DNA from: Sulfitobacter marinus
Lineage (GTDB): Bacteria > Pseudomonadota > Alphaproteobacteria > Rhodobacterales > Rhodobacteraceae
Direction of reading: 5' to 3'
Length of the DNA: 64,000 bases
Assembly: GCF_900116285.1 (NCBI RefSeq)
Contig: NZ_FPAJ01000001.1
Coordinates: 868,001-932,000, forward strand
The number at the start of each line of letters is the position of its first letter. The first letter of the stretch is position 1. The notes below the pieces were generated by a model, which was not told the DNA's origin, did not search any database, and was given only the letters and a program-made list of their open reading frames with translations. This document shows positions 5,620 to 13,343 of this stretch, one piece after another. A program made the position numbers and the translations under genes.

Positions 5620-6612
5620 TTAGCCGTTGACGTCAACGACGACACGGCCCCGCACCTGTCCATTCAGGATATCCTTGCCGAGCTGTGGTAAATCCTTAAG
5701 CGTCGCAGGCACAACCATATCTTCTAGCTTGGCCATCGGCAGGTCTTTGGCGACCCTCTCCCACGCGCGCAAACGGTTGTCATAGGGCTGCATCACGGAA
5801 TCAATCCCCAACAGGTTCACACCGCGCAACAGGAACGGAATAACCGTCGCAGGCAAGGCCGCGCCACCGGCCAGGCCAACAGCGGCAACAGACGCGCTAT
5901 ATTTCATTTGCCCTAAAACGCGCGCCAACATCGCGCCGCCTACGGCATCAATGCACCCGGCCCAGGTTTCGCCCTCAAGCGGGCGCTTGACCGTCTCGTT
6001 GATCTCGTCCCGTGCAACGATCTGACTGGCCCCAAGTGCCTTAAGGTAATCCGACGTCTCGGGCCGTCCCGTCACACCGGCAACCTCGTGACCCAAAGCG
6101 GCTAGAATCGCAACGGCAACCGAACCGACACCGCCCGCGGCACCTGTAACCAGCACAGGACCATGGCCGGTTTTCAACCCATGATCCTCCAACGCCATCA
6201 CTGCAAGCATCGCAGTGAACCCGGCGGTCCCCACGGCCATCGCCTGACGGGTATCAAGGCCCTTGGGCAGCGGCACCAACCAATCGGCCCGCACCCGCGC
6301 CTTTTGCGAATACCCGCCCCAATGCGCCTCGCCCACACGCCAGCCGGTCAAAACGACCTTGTCACGGGGCTTATAGCGATCATCATCCGACGCCTCGACC
6401 GTGCCTGCAAAATCGATGCCCGGAATATGCGGATAATTCCGCACCAATCCGCCACCCGGCCCGATGCACAAACCATCCTTGTAATTCACAGTCGAATATT
6501 CGACCGCGACGGTCACTTCACCGGCAGGCAACTGATCCAGCTCAATCTGCGTCACCGCGGCAGAGGTCTTACCGCTCTCTTCATCCTTGGTCACCATCAA
6601 CGCATCAAACAT
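5620..6612 (-). CDS. acuI: Acryloyl-CoA reductase AcuI (MDR family, NADPH-dependent)
   Basis: A 330-residue medium-chain dehydrogenase/reductase of the YhdH/AcuI group, which reduces acryloyl-CoA to propionyl-CoA and so detoxifies acrylate derived from DMSP. Visible features are the GroES-like N-terminal domain with YSTVNYKDGL and IPGIDFAGTV, then a Rossmann domain with VTGAAGGVGSVAVA for NADPH; there are no zinc-ligand cysteines, as expected for this group. The ATG at 6612 follows TAGGAGAG at a good distance. It lies downstream of dmdA on the same strand, separated by 105 bp that contain a dispersed repeat with a strong hairpin. The dmdA-acuI order is the one known from Ruegeria pomeroyi. 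Confidence 0.9.
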   Translation of the reverse strand: MFDALMVTKDEESGKTSAAVTQIELDQLPAGEVTVAVEYSTVNYKDGLCIGPGGGLVRNYPHIPGIDFAGTVEASDDDRYKPRDKVVLTGWRVGEAHWGGYSQKARVRADWLVPLPKGLDTRQAMAVGTAGFTAMLAVMALEDHGLKTGHGPVLVTGAAGGVGSVAVAILAALGHEVAGVTGRPETSDYLKALGASQIVARDEINETVKRPLEGETWAGCIDAVGGAMLARVLGQMKYSASVAAVGLAGGAALPATVIPFLLRGVNLLGIDSVMQPYDNRLRAWERVAKDLPMAKLEDMVVPATLKDLPQLGKDILNGQVRGRVVVDVNG

Positions 6613-6645: not shown

Positions 6646-6693
6646 TTTTCATTTTGCCAATAAACTCCGGGGAGCCCGAGGGGCTGGCCCCTC
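6646..6693 (-). repeat. Dispersed intergenic repeat, family 1, full-length copy, in the dmdA-acuI spacer
   Basis: On the plus strand this copy reads CATTTTGCCAATAAACTCC, then GGGGAG, a 3-base spacer and a perfect hairpin GAGGGGC-TG-GCCCCTC. The same arrangement occurs in inverse orientation at 44053-44101, and short copies of the left half occur at 28542 and 35576. Here it lies inside an apparent operon, so the hairpin will be in the dmdA-acuI transcript. Confidence 0.75.
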
Positions 6694-6717
6694 GATCCCC
6701 AACTCTCATCCAGGCGA

Positions 6718-7821
6718 TTACGCCCAGAATTTCTCGCGGACCACCGCATCGCGCAGCCCTTGGGGCGTGCGTACCTGCACCTCGCATCCGTCGTCCCAAT
6801 GGGTCATCCGCACCATGCCAATCGCCACATTTGTTTTGAAATCCGGCGAATACGCGGCCGAGGTCACCTGACCGACCTTCTTTCCCTTTACCTCGATGTC
6901 CCAAACGCGGTCACAAGGTGGCACGGCCTCGCCCGCAATATCTATCGCGCGGACCTGTTTGGTGGGGCCTTCCTTGGCAACCCGCAACAACGCATCCCGA
7001 CCAATACAGCCAATCGCCGTTTGGGTGTCACAGAACCGGCCCAAGCCGCATTCATGGGGCGTGTTATCGTCGGTCATATCATTGCCATAACTCAACATAC
7101 CGCCCTCGACGCGCTCTATCCCGTTGGGGCAGCCTGCGCGCACGTCCAGATCACGGCCCGCCTCCATCAACGCGTTCCACAGCGGCATACCTTTATCTTC
7201 GCCATCAACGTAAATCTCGAACCCGCCCTGTTTTGAATAACCAGACCGGGCCACCGCCATGGATCGCCCCTCAAAATCGAACATACCAAAGCGGAAAAAC
7301 CGGATATCACGCACCGCGTCACCAAAGACGCGCGCCAACAGATCATCCGCCTTGGGGCCTTGGATCGCCAACGGGCTGATATCGGGTTCATCAATCAATA
7401 CATCCAGCCGGTAGCCATTGGCGATCCCCTTGACCCACAGCATCAAATCACTGTCGGCGATAGAAATCCACCAGCGGTCCTCGGCCAGCTTTACGGCCAC
7501 CGGATCGTTCAACATCCCCCCGGTTTCATCAACAATGGGCACATAAAAACACCGCCCCGGCAACATCCCGCGCAGATCGCGTGGCGTCAGCATTTGCATC
7601 AGCTTTGCCGCATCCGGCCCGCGCAGTTCCACCTGTCGTTCGCAGGATACATCCCAGACTTGCACAGCCTCTTTCAGGTGGTGATAATCCTCTTGCACGC
7701 TTTTGAAAACCGTGGGCAAAAGCATGTGGTTATAGACCGTATAGGCCTTGACCCCCGCTGCTTCGACACCTTCGGAAAACATCGTGCGCCTGATCCGGCG
7801 CGAGGGGGAAATCAGGGCCAT
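6718..7821 (-). CDS. dmdA: Dimethylsulfoniopropionate (DMSP) demethylase DmdA
   Basis: Transfers a methyl group from DMSP to tetrahydrofolate, giving methylmercaptopropionate; first step of the demethylation route in marine bacteria. The 367-residue protein belongs to the GcvT fold but carries the DmdA-type sequence throughout: PSRRIRR near the start, YTVYNHMLLPTVF, VQVWDVSCERQVEL, GYSKQGGFEIYV, a GMLSYGNDMTDDNTPHECGL loop and CIGRDALLRVAKEGP. These distinguish it from glycine-cleavage T proteins and sarcosine or dimethylglycine dehydrogenases. It begins one base before the end of the DinB-like gene (zero spacing), so it is the fourth gene of a five-gene operon. Full length. Confidence 0.95.
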   Translation of the reverse strand: MALISPSRRIRRTMFSEGVEAAGVKAYTVYNHMLLPTVFKSVQEDYHHLKEAVQVWDVSCERQVELRGPDAAKLMQMLTPRDLRGMLPGRCFYVPIVDETGGMLNDPVAVKLAEDRWWISIADSDLMLWVKGIANGYRLDVLIDEPDISPLAIQGPKADDLLARVFGDAVRDIRFFRFGMFDFEGRSMAVARSGYSKQGGFEIYVDGEDKGMPLWNALMEAGRDLDVRAGCPNGIERVEGGMLSYGNDMTDDNTPHECGLGRFCDTQTAIGCIGRDALLRVAKEGPTKQVRAIDIAGEAVPPCDRVWDIEVKGKKVGQVTSAAYSPDFKTNVAIGMVRMTHWDDGCEVQVRTPQGLRDAVVREKFWA

Positions 7822-8331
7822 TTATGCGGTCTCCGGCAAAAAGGCGATGTCCGTAACAGGTGCGCTTTGACCCGCCGCCGTCAGCATCGCGTGGATTTGA
7901 CCCCGGTGATGGGTCTGGTGATTGAACAATTGCAACACGCCCTGCCCTTTTGGCAGGTCATAAGCCGGGCCGCCCCCCGCCGGGACACAATGCAGATCAC
8001 CCAGCAAATCCACCTCGCGCAAACTGTTTGCCCAATGGCTGATTTTTCCGTCCACCCGCTGCCGATCCGCTGCCCAATCGCGGGCGTCCTTATGCAGCAT
8101 CAACCATTTATCAAAGCTCTCGATTGGGGACTCCATCGACGGGTCGTACCGCGACAACCACAACATGTCAGCCGCTAGGATATGGTTTGCCGTGCTCAGG
8201 ATCGAGCCAAAAAACGCCCCGCGATCTTTGGTCAAATCCGCCTGCGACATATCCAGAAAAAGCGGTATCAGTTGATCATTTTGCCAACTGTTATAACGCG
8301 CCATCATCCGTGCATAGCCGACGTTGATCAT
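7822..8331 (-). CDS. DinB-family four-helix protein with a His metal site
   Basis: A 169-residue protein of the DinB/YfiT fold. The three expected metal ligands can be read as H50 (TANH), H138 and H142 (NHQTHHRGQ), the pattern of DinB proteins such as thiol-dependent transferases. The ATG at 8331 overlaps the DUF1326 stop as ATGA, and the stop abuts the dmdA start, so translation is probably coupled on both sides. Members of the fold include thiol transferases and isomerases (for example mycothiol- and glutathione-dependent ones), but the substrate here is unknown. Its place directly before dmdA suggests a job in DMSP or methyl-sulfur metabolism; this is inference from context. Confidence 0.8.
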   Translation of the reverse strand: MINVGYARMMARYNSWQNDQLIPLFLDMSQADLTKDRGAFFGSILSTANHILAADMLWLSRYDPSMESPIESFDKWLMLHKDARDWAADRQRVDGKISHWANSLREVDLLGDLHCVPAGGGPAYDLPKGQGVLQLFNHQTHHRGQIHAMLTAAGQSAPVTDIAFLPETA

Positions 8332-9035
8332 GGGTTCGGGCCCTGCCAATCGATCGGGCAAATCTCGGCTGATTTGCCGCCAAAATCCCAGACCCTGCCA
8401 TAGTCCCGCACCTTGGATTTCAACCCGCGTGCCGCGATAATATCCGGCCCCATCCAGTATTTCGAATTTGAGATCATCACCGGATGATCCGGCGATTTAC
8501 CCGCGATCATTTCGATCTCGCCTGCGATCTTGCGGCCAATTTGGATCGACCGTTTATTGCCATCTCGGATGATTTTCACGGGCGCGCGCTCGGCCCCGAT
8601 GATCTCGGACACCAGCATGGTAAACAGGCCCGTGGTACCGCCCGCCGCACCGGAAAATATCTGCAAAATACCATTATAGGCTTTGCCACTGGCATTTTCA
8701 TCGACGTAGGCCGCGACTTTCCAGTTGCCCTCGCCCATGCGGCCAGGAATATCAACCAGCAAGCCCACGTTCAGCCCCGACAGGTCTTCACCCTCATAAT
8801 GGCCCTCGTCGATGGCGATGGCCATCCACGCGTGGCAATGCCCTTCTGTGGGTGGGTGCGCGCCAAGGCTGACAACGCAGGGGCAGAACATCTCGCACGA
8901 GCAATTGAGGAATAATTCGCCCTTGATCTGCCAGTTTGTCGGGGTCGCCTCGCGCCGTTTCGGGTTGGGCATGCGCTGATCAATGCGCTGACTGATCGGC
9001 AAACGGTCTGCGTCCGCTCTTTTGTTGGTCGCCAT
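8328..9035 (-). CDS. DUF1326 protein with a CxCxxxCxC cluster
   Basis: A 235-residue soluble protein of the DUF1326 family. After a polar, basic leader of about 34 residues it has the family start WQIKGELFLNCSCEMFCPC, giving cysteines at 45, 47, 51 and 53, a likely metal or cluster site. The remainder is beta-rich with conserved DGNKRS and a terminal WDFGGKSAEICPIDW. I chose the ATG at 9035 because GGAGGA lies 5 to 6 bases upstream and the DUF2182 stop is one base away; a frame reaching 9083 would overlap that gene for no reason. DUF1326 and DUF2182 genes are often paired in bacteria. Function unknown. Confidence 0.85.
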   Translation of the reverse strand: MATNKRADADRLPISQRIDQRMPNPKRREATPTNWQIKGELFLNCSCEMFCPCVVSLGAHPPTEGHCHAWMAIAIDEGHYEGEDLSGLNVGLLVDIPGRMGEGNWKVAAYVDENASGKAYNGILQIFSGAAGGTTGLFTMLVSEIIGAERAPVKIIRDGNKRSIQIGRKIAGEIEMIAGKSPDHPVMISNSKYWMGPDIIAARGLKSKVRDYGRVWDFGGKSAEICPIDWQGPNP

Positions 9036-9036
9036 C

Positions 9037-9825
9037 TTATCCTCCTGAATACAAGGGCCAAGCTGCCACGGCGCATGCGCCAAGGATCAGCAGGACACCC
9101 AACGGTTTTATCACTTTCAACCCGATCTGGGGCAATTTTTCGAGAACCATGAATACCGTGGCCAGCCCCATCCATGCCAAATTCATCACACCGCCCGCAA
9201 AGCCAAGCGCCATGAAACCCCAGCAACAGGCCACGCAAAACGTGCCAAGCCCCAGCCCCATGCGCACACCGCCCGCAAAGCCCGCGCGCCAATGGCCCAT
9301 GAAATACATCATCGGGGAATGACACACGCCGTGGCAGATTTCCTTGGCGCGGGTGAATTGAAACACCCCCACGGCCAGCAATAATGCGGCGGCAAACCAG
9401 CGTGATTTCGCGATGCCCAGCATGTCGATGACCCCACCATACAGCAGCGCCATCTGCACCGCCGCGATGACAAGCGCAAAGCCGACCCACATGATGAAAT
9501 AGCCCAGCAACACGCCAAACCACCCTGCCCGCGTGCCGTTGGCACTGACCATGAGGTCTTCGTAGCTGCGCAGAGTCGGGATCATCGTAGGCAGCATCAT
9601 CGCCGCCATCATCGCCGCCCACATCACGGCCAAAGGCCCGAAACTGGCCATGGGCATATACATGTCCATGCGCGGGTCCATGCCGCGCATCATTTGGCCC
9701 ATGGCGTCGGGACGGCCCAGCAGATCCAGCCCCATGCCAGTGCTCATCACATACATCATGACCCAAGCGGCCAAAATCACGCCGAAAAAGCCAAGCCAAA
9801 GAGCGGAACGAATGACGGGTGCCAT
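9037..9825 (-). CDS. DUF2182 integral membrane protein, methionine-rich
   Basis: A 262-residue membrane protein with about six to seven helices. The first periplasmic loop is unusually rich in methionine (MGQMMRGMDPRMDMYMPM), followed by MWAAMMAAMMLPTMIPT, and it later has CHGVCHSP and the FCVACCWGFM helix. These Met, Cys and His residues match the DUF2182 family, described as predicted metal-binding membrane proteins. First gene of the minus-strand operon that ends with dmdA and acuI; GGAGG precedes the ATG. The promoter region carries the palindrome at 9872. Function unknown; copper or another soft metal is a reasonable guess only. Confidence 0.85.
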   Translation of the reverse strand: MAPVIRSALWLGFFGVILAAWVMMYVMSTGMGLDLLGRPDAMGQMMRGMDPRMDMYMPMASFGPLAVMWAAMMAAMMLPTMIPTLRSYEDLMVSANGTRAGWFGVLLGYFIMWVGFALVIAAVQMALLYGGVIDMLGIAKSRWFAAALLLAVGVFQFTRAKEICHGVCHSPMMYFMGHWRAGFAGGVRMGLGLGTFCVACCWGFMALGFAGGVMNLAWMGLATVFMVLEKLPQIGLKVIKPLGVLLILGACAVAAWPLYSGG

Positions 9826-9861
9826 GTGACGCTATCCTCCCAGACTTGCGCGACTCGGTGC

Positions 9862-9898
9862 TTGAAAAAATAATGTCAGACATTTAAAGTTTTTCCAA
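9862..9898. promoter_or_regulatory. Divergent promoters of the dmdA operon and the gntR gene
   Basis: Minus strand: TTGGAA (9893-9898) and CATTAT (9870-9875) are separated by 17 bp and point to DUF2182. Plus strand: TTGAAA (9862-9867) and TAAAGT (9885-9890) are separated by 17 bp and point to the regulator. The two promoters interleave and both contain the palindrome at 9872-9884. Boxes were matched by eye to sigma-70 consensus. Confidence 0.55.
9872..9884. promoter_or_regulatory. Candidate GntR/FCD operator 1 (perfect 13-bp palindrome)
   Basis: AATGTCAGACATT is a perfect inverted repeat around a central A and contains the GT-N3-AC core typical of FadR-subfamily operators. It covers the -10 box of the minus-strand promoter and lies between the -35 and -10 boxes of the plus-strand promoter, so bound protein could block both. 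Confidence 0.65.
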
Positions 9899-9904
9899 AT
9901 ATTA

Positions 9905-9917
9905 AATGTAAGACATA
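9905..9917. promoter_or_regulatory. Candidate GntR/FCD operator 2, overlapping the gntR start codon
   Basis: AATGTAAGACATA matches operator 1 at 11 of 13 positions and keeps the GT-N3-AC core. Its last base is the A of the regulator's ATG. Centre-to-centre distance to operator 1 is 33 bp, about three helical turns, which would place two dimers on one face of the DNA. Confidence 0.6.
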
Positions 9918-10657
9918 TGAAATCTAAACTTGTCCCCTCAGCCGACCTATCGGCGCAGATCGCTGCGAATATTCGTGATGCCATCGTAAGTGGTGCATTG
10001 ATTGTGGACGAGCGCTTGCCCTCGGAGGCGGAGCTATCGCTGAAATTCAACGTATCCCGCGCCACAGTCCGAGAGGCGCTGAAACGGCTGGCAGCGCAAT
10101 CCCTGATCCGCACACAGCGCGGGGCAACTGGCGGCGCTTTCGTCAATCGTATCAGCTTTGAGGCAGCGCAAGCCCAGCAGATCACCACCTCGACGCTGCT
10201 GTTGTCGATGAATGATGTGAGTTTCGAGACCGCCTGCGAAGCGCGATATGCCTTGGAACGCGCCTGCGCGCCGCTATCATCTGAGCGCCGAAAACAGTAC
10301 CATATCAATGCAATGCGGGATGAAATTAAGGTACAAGGCGAAGCGAATTTGACCGATGAGGAATTTTGCGCCTCTGATGTCGCCTTTCACCGTGCCTTGG
10401 TCGATGGCGCGGGCAATCCGGTGCTGTCCTATCAGCTTGCCGGTGCGGTCGAGGCAATGCAGCCGCTGATGAACATGATCACCTTCACCGCCCGATCCCG
10501 CGATGCAATCATCGCGCTGCATATCTCAATTGCCGATGCGATCGAGGCTGGCGACGGTGCCGCAGCCAGTGCCGGGCTCACTGCGCTTGAGGCCGAGACC
10601 CAAGCCCTTGCCCACCGTATTTTTGCGCAGCGCAGCGGAAATACTGCTCAAGTTTGA
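9917..10657 (+). CDS. GntR-family (FCD/FadR subfamily) transcriptional regulator, likely of the dmdA operon
   Basis: A 246-residue DNA-binding protein. Residues about 10-70 form a GntR winged helix with RLPSEAELSLKFNVSRATVR, followed by TGGAFV; the rest is an all-helical FCD ligand-binding domain containing the metal-site pattern D...H (FCASDVAFHRALV) and a late IIALHISIADAI histidine. It is divergent from the DUF2182-DUF1326-DinB-dmdA-acuI operon and shares a promoter region with two palindromes, so autoregulation plus control of that operon is the natural reading. A GntR gene also neighbours dmdA-acuI in Ruegeria. The ligand is unknown; acrylate, acryloyl-CoA or DMSP are candidates by inference. 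Confidence 0.88.
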   Translation: MKSKLVPSADLSAQIAANIRDAIVSGALIVDERLPSEAELSLKFNVSRATVREALKRLAAQSLIRTQRGATGGAFVNRISFEAAQAQQITTSTLLLSMNDVSFETACEARYALERACAPLSSERRKQYHINAMRDEIKVQGEANLTDEEFCASDVAFHRALVDGAGNPVLSYQLAGAVEAMQPLMNMITFTARSRDAIIALHISIADAIEAGDGAAASAGLTALEAETQALAHRIFAQRSGNTAQV

Positions 10658-11280: not shown

Positions 11281-12096
11281 ATGGCTGCTCTGAATGGAAT
11301 TACCGTCCCGCAACTGTTGCGCCTGATCGGCACAACTGATGCGCCCGTGCTGGTTGATATTTGCACAGACTCTGATTTCAACGAAGATCCCTATCTGATC
11401 CCCGGTGCCATTCGGCACACCCATAAAGATGTTGCAGGCCTAAAGGACATTCTGGCCGGGCGGCCTTGCGTCATAATCTGTGCAAGAGGCATCAAACTGG
11501 GCCAAGGGCTCGCGGCGCGGCTGCGCGCTGATGGCATTGCCGCGGAATATCTGGCGGGCGGCATGCAGGCGTGGCGCGATCACCCCGACACTGTGCGTGT
11601 TCCCGCTGCTGCCCTGCCCGAGCCTGTGGACGGCGCGAGCCTGTGGGTGACCCGCCACCGGCCCAAGATCGACCGCATTGCCTGCCCATGGTTGATCCGG
11701 CGTTTTGTCGATCCGGCTGCGCGGTTCTTGTTCGTTTCGCCAAGCGAAGTGCTGGCGGTGGCAGATCGCTTTGGAGCGGTGCCCTTTGATGTTGAAGGGG
11801 TCGCGTTTTCCCATCAGGGAGAGAACTGCACCTTTGACACAATGCTGGACGTGTTTGAACTGCATTGCGCGCCATTGGATCAACTGGCCTTGGTCATACG
11901 AGCCGCCGATACCAACCGCCATGATCTGGCCCCCGAGGCGGCCGGGCTGTTGGCCTTGTCTGTGGGGTTGTCCCGCCAGTTTAAAGAGGACCAAGACCAG
12001 TTGGCGCAGGGTTTGCTGATGTATGATGCATTGTTTCGTTGGGCCCGCGACGGCGCAGGTGAAACCCATGACTGGCCCGGGGATCGCAGCGCATGA
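11281..12096 (+). CDS. chrB: Rhodanese plus ChrB-type chromate resistance protein
   Basis: A 271-residue fusion. The first half (about 1-105) is a rhodanese domain with LVDICTDSDF, the PGAIR turn and the active-site loop CARG (C67). The second half, from about VTRHRPKIDRIACPWLIRRF, is the ChrB C-terminal domain with FLFVSPSE and GENCTFDTMLD. Such proteins are annotated as chromate resistance proteins and stand next to chrA, as here, where the genes overlap by ATGA. I chose the ATG at 11281 because AAAGGA lies 8 bases upstream; the in-frame ATG at 11272 lies inside that ribosome site. A regulatory or redox role in chromate stress is known for relatives, not shown here. Confidence 0.82.
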   Translation: MAALNGITVPQLLRLIGTTDAPVLVDICTDSDFNEDPYLIPGAIRHTHKDVAGLKDILAGRPCVIICARGIKLGQGLAARLRADGIAAEYLAGGMQAWRDHPDTVRVPAAALPEPVDGASLWVTRHRPKIDRIACPWLIRRFVDPAARFLFVSPSEVLAVADRFGAVPFDVEGVAFSHQGENCTFDTMLDVFELHCAPLDQLALVIRAADTNRHDLAPEAAGLLALSVGLSRQFKEDQDQLAQGLLMYDALFRWARDGAGETHDWPGDRSA

Positions 12097-13343
12097 GCGC
12101 GCCAAGCTGGTCTCGCATGGGGCAGGTTTTCGGAAGGATTGGCCTGCTGTCCTTCGGCGGGCCTGCCGCCCAAATCGCGCTGATGCACCGGGAATTGGTG
12201 GAAAAGCACGGCTGGCTGACCGAGGCCGCATATCTGCGGGCGCTGTCGCTGTGCATGTTGTTGCCCGGACCCGAAGCCATGCAACTGGCTACCTATGCAG
12301 GCTGGCGATTGCGCGGGACGGCGGGCGGGCTGTTGGCGGGGCTTCTGTTTGTGGTGCCCGGCGCGGTGGTGATTGGCATATTGGCCTTGGGTTATGCCTA
12401 TTACGGCCAGCTGCCCCTGGTTCAGGCCGCGTTTCTGGGCATCAAAGCCGCCGTGATCATCGTGGTTTTCCAAGCGCTTAGAAAGGTCGCGGCAAAGGCA
12501 TTGACCGGCACCGAAGGTTGGGTGCTGGCGCTTGCATCTTTTGCGGCGCTTTTCATCTTGGGGCTGCCTTTCCCGTTGATCATCCTCGCCGCGGGACTGT
12601 GGGGCTTTAGCCGTCAATCCGGGCCGGTTGAACCGGTGGATGCCCCGTCTGCGGGGGCCGCCAGACCGCTGAAGACCGGATTGATTTGGGGCGCGCTATG
12701 GGCCGCGCCGCTGCTGCTGGTTTGGGCCATGGGGCAGGAGTTTCTGCTGCAACTGGGTTTGTTTTTCTCAAAGCTGGCGGTGGTGACGTTTGGCGGTGCC
12801 TATGCGGTTTTAGCCTATATGACCCAAAGCGTTGTGCAAGATTACGGCTGGATCACCACCCAGCAGATGATCGATGCGTTGGGTCTGGCCGAAACCACCC
12901 CCGGCCCGCTGATTTTAGTGACCGAATTTGTCGCCCTGCTGGCCGGATTCGCGCAAAGTGGCGTCACCGGTGCGATCGTGGCTGGTCTATTGGCGCTGTG
13001 GGTGACCTTTACCCCGTGTTTTCTTTGGATATTCCTTGCGGGCCCCTATCTTGAAGCGATTTCGACACAACCGCGTCTTGGATCTGCCCTGCGCGCCATT
13101 ACCGCCGCTGTCGTCGGGGTGATCGGTAATCTTTCTGTGTGGTTTGGCCTGCATGTCCTGTTTGGAAAGGTTATACCCGCCGGCATTCTGGCGATGCCCT
13201 TGCCGGTCTGGTCCAGCTTTAACCTTACGGCGATGATCCTGACCGGGTTGGCTGGCATATTAATGCTTGTTCTCGGACGCGGATTTGTCTTCACCATGGC
13301 TGTGCTCGGTGCCGCAGCGCTTGTTCCTGCCCTCGTTGGGTAA
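12093..13343 (+). CDS. chrA: Chromate transporter ChrA (long-chain, two-domain)
   Basis: A 416-residue inner-membrane protein of the CHR family, thought to export chromate by proton-motive force. Both halves carry the family motif in their first helices: LLSFGGPAAQIALM at the N-terminus with PGPEAMQLATYAGWRLRG, and VVTFGGAYAVLAYM with TTPGPLILVTEFV in the second half. About ten to twelve helices are evident. Length is normal for the long-chain type. Translationally coupled to chrB. Specificity for chromate rather than another oxyanion is from the family. Confidence 0.9.
   Translation: MSAPSWSRMGQVFGRIGLLSFGGPAAQIALMHRELVEKHGWLTEAAYLRALSLCMLLPGPEAMQLATYAGWRLRGTAGGLLAGLLFVVPGAVVIGILALGYAYYGQLPLVQAAFLGIKAAVIIVVFQALRKVAAKALTGTEGWVLALASFAALFILGLPFPLIILAAGLWGFSRQSGPVEPVDAPSAGAARPLKTGLIWGALWAAPLLLVWAMGQEFLLQLGLFFSKLAVVTFGGAYAVLAYMTQSVVQDYGWITTQQMIDALGLAETTPGPLILVTEFVALLAGFAQSGVTGAIVAGLLALWVTFTPCFLWIFLAGPYLEAISTQPRLGSALRAITAAVVGVIGNLSVWFGLHVLFGKVIPAGILAMPLPVWSSFNLTAMILTGLAGILMLVLGRGFVFTMAVLGAAALVPALVG

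Follow-up and report, generated by a model that had tools for sequence, protein, structure and literature searches.

We find that two 13-bp words in the promoter region shared by a gntR gene and a dmdA-acuI operon of Sulfitobacter marinus are very probably operators of the adjacent GntR/FCD regulator, which likely represses both the operon and its own gene and would be released by an acrylate-type C3 product. The window, by which we mean the whole stretch of 64,000 nucleotides (64 kb) analysed here, holds gntR and, facing it, a leftward row of genes, DUF2182-DUF1326-dinB-dmdA-acuI, that runs from 9825 down to 5620 (Table 1). Both words stand on the + strand where an earlier note on this DNA had placed them, with centres at 9878 and 9911, 33 bp apart, between gntR and the operon. 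Its description of twin 13-bp palindromes holds for operator 1, a perfect 6+1+6 palindrome, but operator 2 is imperfect, with 4 of 6 pairs. The GT-N3-AC core is present in both, as TGT-CAG-ACA in operator 1 and TGT-AAG-ACA in operator 2; FadR-subfamily operators are described as TKGT/ACMA boxes with GT and AC 3 nt apart (PMC4494728). Operator 2 had also been said to cover the gntR start codon, which is generous wording because it touches the ATG by its last base alone, the A at 9917.

Table 1. Positions of the operators, promoter elements and genes in the window
Feature	Position	Strand	Description
acuI, acryloyl-CoA reductase family	5620-6612	-	TIGR02823, 449.9 bits, over cut-off
dmdA, DMSP demethylase	6718-7821	-	NF009133, 681.7 bits vs cut-off 410
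DinB-family protein	7822-8361	-	Domain match
DUF1326 protein	8328-9035	-	Domain match
DUF2182 / PpoB2-family protein	9037-9825	-	First operon gene; Pfam PpoB2, copper chaperone
GANTC	9852-9856		GACTC on +, CGAGTCG on operon strand; ~+7 to +11 of inferred operon start
Inferred gntR promoter	9862-9890	+	TTGAAA (9862-9867), 17 bp, TAAAGT (9885-9890)
Inferred operon promoter	9870-9898	-	TTGGAA (9898-9893), 17 bp, CATTAT (9875-9870); start ~9863
Operator 1	9872-9884		AATGTCAGACATT; 23.6 bits (17-bp profile); overlaps inferred operon -10, in gntR promoter spacer
Operator 2	9905-9917		AATGTAAGACATA; 24.7 bits (17-bp profile); ends on A of gntR ATG
gntR	9917-10657	+	GntR wHTH + FCD domain, 246 aa

The assignment of the regulator to the FadR subfamily is borne out by an N-terminal GntR winged helix-turn-helix (PF00392, 61.2 bits vs a cut-off of 27), a C-terminal all-helical FCD domain (PF07729, 67.2 bits vs 24.3) and the GT-N3-AC palindromic operator. 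No NCBIfam model reaches its cut-off for the protein among the 25 of 27 matches listed, the best being NanR at 94 bits vs 260, and the closest regulator in the best 80 of 567 relatives is that of Sulfitobacter sp. HGT1, at 90% identity. Residues D154, H158 and H202, which we take to be FCD metal ligands, are invariant in both regulator alignments and, on sequence comparison with solved structures, aligned with those of NanR (6on4); a fourth usual ligand was not identified. As with the FadR-subfamily regulators NanR, LldR, PdhR and DgoR, a GntR wHTH is joined to an FCD domain, the predicted operator is a GT-N3-AC palindrome and the gene is divergent from its operon; unlike those examples, the predicted target here is acuI/dmdA and the operators come as a tandem pair with a spacing of 15 or 33 bp.

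Taken within the window alone, the two words are unremarkable, and the case for operators rests on conservation. A degenerate pattern with up to 2 mismatches is not enriched over the 64 kb (9 observed vs 15.65 expected), and perfect 6+1+6 palindromes are near chance (20 observed vs ~17.6 expected). We therefore rely on relatives. A sample of 394 family genomes gave matches to dmdA in 169 of them (E up to 1e-100) and to the regulator in 163 of them (E up to 1e-25), the weakest of which may be other GntR proteins. The main set comprises the window and the 149 strongest of the 162 other genomes with a gntR match, the 13 weakest being left out; a comparison set is made up of 31 dmdA loci whose genomes have no gntR match, and the best 80 of 567 relatives form a named set that in part covers the same organisms as the main set. 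Sites, conservation, co-occurrence with gntR and gene partners were computed directly. The resulting profile is symmetric and 17 bp long, with the core TGTCNGACA and A/T flanks (286 instances), and apart from the two operators a single place in the 64 kb scores at least 8 bits (8.7).

Conservation among relatives had been set beforehand as the refuting test, and its outcome did not refute the reading: of the 150 loci, 149 carry at least one copy of the profile upstream of gntR and 131 carry at least two, with one site in 18 loci, two in 125 and three in 6; at the rate seen in the rest of the same loci, 0.45 sites would be expected in all upstream gntR regions together. In the exception, L072, a copy of 24.6 bits stands 202 bp ahead of the assigned start. 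When the profile was trained on half of the loci, the held-out loci gave at least one site in 75/75 and at least two in 62/75, and 240-bp control stretches inside gntR gave none. The named set agrees, with at least one site in 80/80 loci and two in 76/80. Among the 31 gntR-less dmdA loci, a copy of at least 8 bits lies somewhere in view in 6, but just upstream of the operon in two, as a strong copy in L229 and a weak one of 13.6 bits in L239. The orphan operator of L229 (oriented 4757, 27.5 bits) precedes a dinB-dmdA-acuI row in an assembly that is 77% complete and has no gntR match. L227 has lost gntR and operators together, the upstream side of its operon adjoining a chromate-transporter gene whose counterpart in the window lies beyond gntR, at 12093-13343. 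In L170 the operon and gntR are ~3 kb apart and each has kept one site; the GANTC element described below stayed with the operon.

The 33-bp spacing is true of the window but is a minority form, 15 bp being usual among relatives. Neighbouring site pairs (n = 137) are 15 bp apart in 97 cases, 33 in 10, 14 in 8, 34 in 4 and 35 in 4; in the named set, 21 of 76 pairs have the 33-bp form. The regulator tree, which has 138 rows and whose bootstrap had not settled, requires at least 29 changes of spacing class (14-16, 30-38 or other). Cooperative binding is not implied, because the 15- and 33-bp spacings fall on different helical faces.

All transcript starts are inferred from hexamers. The gntR promoter of the window has 9 of 12 matches in a consensus scan (1 found vs 0.5 expected in shuffles). 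The operon promoter was read from the sequence and is supported by a geometry kept in relatives; a stricter consensus scan of the window did not recover it. Aligned on operator 1, in the 15- and 33-bp forms alike, the operon -35 (TTG...) lies at +20 to +15 and its -10 at -3 to -8 (CATTTA or CATTAA in relatives, CATTAT in the window); the gntR -35 (TTGC..) lies at -16 to -11 and its -10 (TAAA..) at +7 to +12. By these positions the promoters oppose each other across one stretch of ~36 bp, with operator 1 inside both, so that the earlier placing of operator 1 over the operon -10 and in the gntR promoter spacer, on two inferred promoters, finds the same geometry in relatives. In the 15-bp form, operator 2 overlaps both the inferred operon -35 and the start of gntR. 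It directly adjoins the gntR ATG in 53/94 such loci, and the inferred start is ~2 nt before the ATG. Words resembling a Shine-Dalgarno (SD) sequence are seen at gntR in 29/150 loci and in 3/79 where the ATG abuts an operator; because of this abutment and the scarcity of SD-like words, a leaderless gntR message is predicted for the common 15-bp form. The 33-bp form of the window would instead carry a gntR leader of ~20 nt.

Which genes accompany the regulator was counted over the 139 loci that show 7.9 kb or more of upstream DNA. Of these, 129 have acuI and 110 have dmdA; 102 have the two together, 27 have acuI but not dmdA, and 2 lack both. The 27 loci with acuI but no dmdA have at least two sites in 22 cases and one site in 5; Roseobacter sp. 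GAI101 (L258), for example, keeps acuI and both sites with no dmdA within the 6 kb in view. On the regulator tree, presence changed at least 21 times for dmdA and at least 23 times for DUF2182, vs at least 7 for acuI. acuI is not an absolute partner, since it is not in view in 10/139 loci, 8 of which have dmdA. The earlier note had proposed one repressor for the dmdA operon and itself, with dmdA and three passengers as the gene list. We retain gntR as part of the controlled unit, but the steadiest partner is acuI, not dmdA, and the list is incomplete, having left out acuI (5620-6612) after dmdA. The likely purpose of the regulator is shifted here from DMSP sensing to acrylate defence. Against the AcuI equivalog model NF051456 the acuI product scores 422.7 bits, just under the cut-off of 440.

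Other features of these gene rows were noted in passing. The DUF2182, DUF1326 and DinB genes (7822-9825 in the window) accompany dmdA/acuI in many loci, whether gntR is present or not. Between dmdA and acuI of the window is an inverted repeat, CGAGGGGCTGGCCCCTCG (6677-6694), with no T run after it, which could be a processing or partial-termination hairpin. Two loci have an acyl-CoA synthetase gene between dmdA and DUF1326 (L162 4898-6514, L171 4864-6483 (-)), of subfamily PRK08162 and scoring below the 3-(methylthio)propionyl-CoA ligase cut-off. Three dmdA-less loci (L083, L120 and L139) have an acyl-CoA-dehydrogenase-like ORF between gntR and acuI, and in a family scan of L083 its best curated match is the acryloyl-CoA reductase AcrC, far under cut-off.

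From these data we infer binding, a dimer, repression, a ligand and a single transcript for the whole operon, and the regulator is most likely an autoregulating local repressor. In the switch that we propose, a regulator dimer would bind each TGTCNGACA-type site in the face-to-face promoter pair, with operator 1 covering the -10 of the leftward operon and the gntR promoter spacer, and operator 2 at the gntR start; once bound, it would most likely repress both operon and gntR. Its release from the DNA would be brought about by a C3 compound formed in DMSP/acrylate metabolism: acrylate, acryloyl-CoA or something closely related. AcuI, together with the demethylase in operons that have gained dmdA, would then be produced while the toxic acrylate branch is running. 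Known systems offer parallels. As in the AcuR-acuI-dddL system of Rhodobacter sphaeroides (PMC3017554), the regulator would be acrylate-linked and its gene lies beside the acuI operon, with an operator over the (here inferred) promoter; the AcuR message is leaderless there, as is predicted here for the common form only. Unlike the TetR-family AcuR, the regulator is a GntR/FCD protein with another operator, and its gene is divergent rather than co-transcribed. Ruegeria pomeroyi likewise has dmdA and acuI in one operon, induced there by DMSP and acrylate; a dmdA-acuI reporter published in 2012 gave ~10-fold induction by DMSP and 14-fold by acrylate in that organism, whose own locus was not identified among the loci compared here (PMC3338564). 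This induction by both compounds fits the acuI-centred reading. The passages of open-licence PubMed Central papers that we consulted name no regulator of dmdA-acuI, no paper in that collection has the name dmdR together with DMSP, and the mentions of GntR in PMC4770636, PMC7876524 and PMC4334477 concern other genes.

Three other explanations were weighed against this repressor. The same regulator could bind the same operators but activate the operon and repress no gene other than its own, as might suit the 33-bp form, where operator 2 lies upstream of the -35 at a distance of ~48 bp from the inferred operon start, and as has a counterpart in Halomonas, where an unrelated AcuR activates acuI (PMC13104084). 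We consider this unlikely, as both main forms have operator 1 across the inferred operon -10, operator 2 overlaps the operon -35 in the common 15-bp form, and the AcuR of R. sphaeroides represses (PMC3017554). There is a similarly small chance that DMSP and dmdA are the true signal and target, with acuI a passenger. The 27/139 loci with acuI but no dmdA, at least two sites being kept in 22 of them, the at least 21 changes of dmdA presence on the regulator tree vs 7 for acuI, and induction by acrylate alone (PMC3338564) all speak against it, even though dmdA is found in 110/139 loci, 8 of them without acuI in view, and DMSP does induce dmdA-acuI (PMC3338564). That the palindromes are chance words of an A+T-rich promoter would agree with their being no commoner than chance within the window, but their conservation and co-occurrence with gntR make this extremely improbable.

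We read the repressor as mainly local in this genome, with some reserve. The 15-base pattern with at most 1 mismatch gives 12 strand matches in its own genome vs 10 in a reversed control; the two operators account for 4 of the 12 matches, and the other four places (15.1, 19.4, 19.9 and 19.4 bits) are near ORFs that look unrelated, one being a start-codon coincidence. A wider regulon in the genome was rejected on this near-control count and these unrelated places. With one mismatch allowed, the looser 13-base pattern exceeds its reversed control (31 and 24 strand matches vs 7 and 9), so more targets are possible; it yields 38 places besides the operators, and of the 30 scored, nine reach at least 8 bits, the best at 19.4 and the rest at or below 15.5. 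Several of these places fall within ORFs, and one, scoring 12.2 bits, stands ~115 bp ahead of a presumed sdhC ORF. Among relatives, L214 has a strong extra operator (oriented 5267) before a BCCT-transporter gene adjoining acuI, and L190 has a strong operator pair 25 bp apart (oriented 1817 and 1842) before a GMC/choline-dehydrogenase-like gene; both genes are possible extra regulon members. In L186 an operator of 23.5 bits (oriented 6382) precedes an alpha/beta-hydrolase gene between acuI and DUF1326. Viral contigs gave 59 pattern matches, with no relative among them.

A second conserved element, GANTC, lies beside operator 1. It occurs within 45 bp outside operator 1 in 117/149 loci, compared with 164/3424 noncoding segments of the same loci (4.8%) and 3.3% of random segments, and in 75/80 loci of the named set. 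Its place varies: measured from the edge of the operator, 58 of 127 occurrences start at 20-21 bp, 74 in the wider range of 18-23 bp and the rest at 6-41 bp, and the commonest position is ~+10 of the inferred operon start. The base at N on the operon strand (n = 116) is G in 66, C in 20, T in 16 and A in 14, and on the tree N changed at least 39 times and GANTC presence at least 19 times; because N is free to vary while GANTC is kept, the element resembles a methylation site. A fixed GAGTC element was rejected, as the exact word is found in 60/149 loci and single changes from it fall mostly at the third base (33 loci, vs 3, 5, 14 and 3 at the others).

GANTC accompanies gntR rather than the operon as such, which is not predicted for a simple operon-promoter element: it lies within 150 bp upstream in 124/150 gntR-bearing operons and in 8/30 gntR-less dmdA operons, one of the 31 loci having been dropped with less than 60 bp in view. 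As controls we used the 30 best loci of the 57 (fumC) and of the 60 (sspB) genomes with a match. The extended form YGANTCG (any N, either strand) is seen in 80/139 loci vs 0/30 fumC and 0/30 sspB upstream regions; the plain form within 150 bp is found in 6/30 fumC and 14/30 sspB regions vs 124/150, and a general promoter habit was rejected on these counts. Fisher values for these comparisons take no account of relatedness and carry no weight here. The sspB count means that another promoter can also be GANTC-rich, and in sspB (window 13445; relatives L366-L395) 12 of 17 occurrences are found 38-49 bp upstream of the start codon.

The genome encodes GcrA (PF07750, 166.0 bits) and a CcrM-like methylase of 366 aa (PF01555, 218.2 bits; RAMA, 65.6 bits). 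As in the sigma-70 promoters of Caulobacter that depend on GcrA/CcrM, GANTC lies near the start, here an inferred one, and its extended context resembles the YGAKTCK/YGAKTCG given there; in Brevundimonas the same study saw no such context (PMC7987155). Unlike those promoters, the one here serves a catabolic operon with a predicted local repressor. The GANTC of the window is a candidate CcrM methylation/GcrA site. We suggest tentatively, at somewhat less than even probability, a double control in which an acrylate-released GntR/FCD repressor and the cell-cycle factor GcrA, acting on a CcrM-methylated GANTC ~10 bp into the transcript, would together couple chromosome replication in Roseobacters with both DMSP demethylation and acryloyl-CoA removal.

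The predicted FadR-subfamily autoregulator with a well-conserved operator pair is ordinary in kind; what would surprise a specialist is the acuI-centred reading and the GANTC. How the balance is set between DMSP demethylation and cleavage to DMS has long been asked, and a 2017 review sees no agreement about the signal (PMC5395565); the question now has a named candidate regulator with exact predicted operators, matched in 163 of the 394 sampled family genomes and supplied with natural gene-loss controls. The putative switch seems tied mainly to the removal of a toxic by-product, and if the conserved GANTC has a function, it would couple a catabolic operon to the replication cycle.
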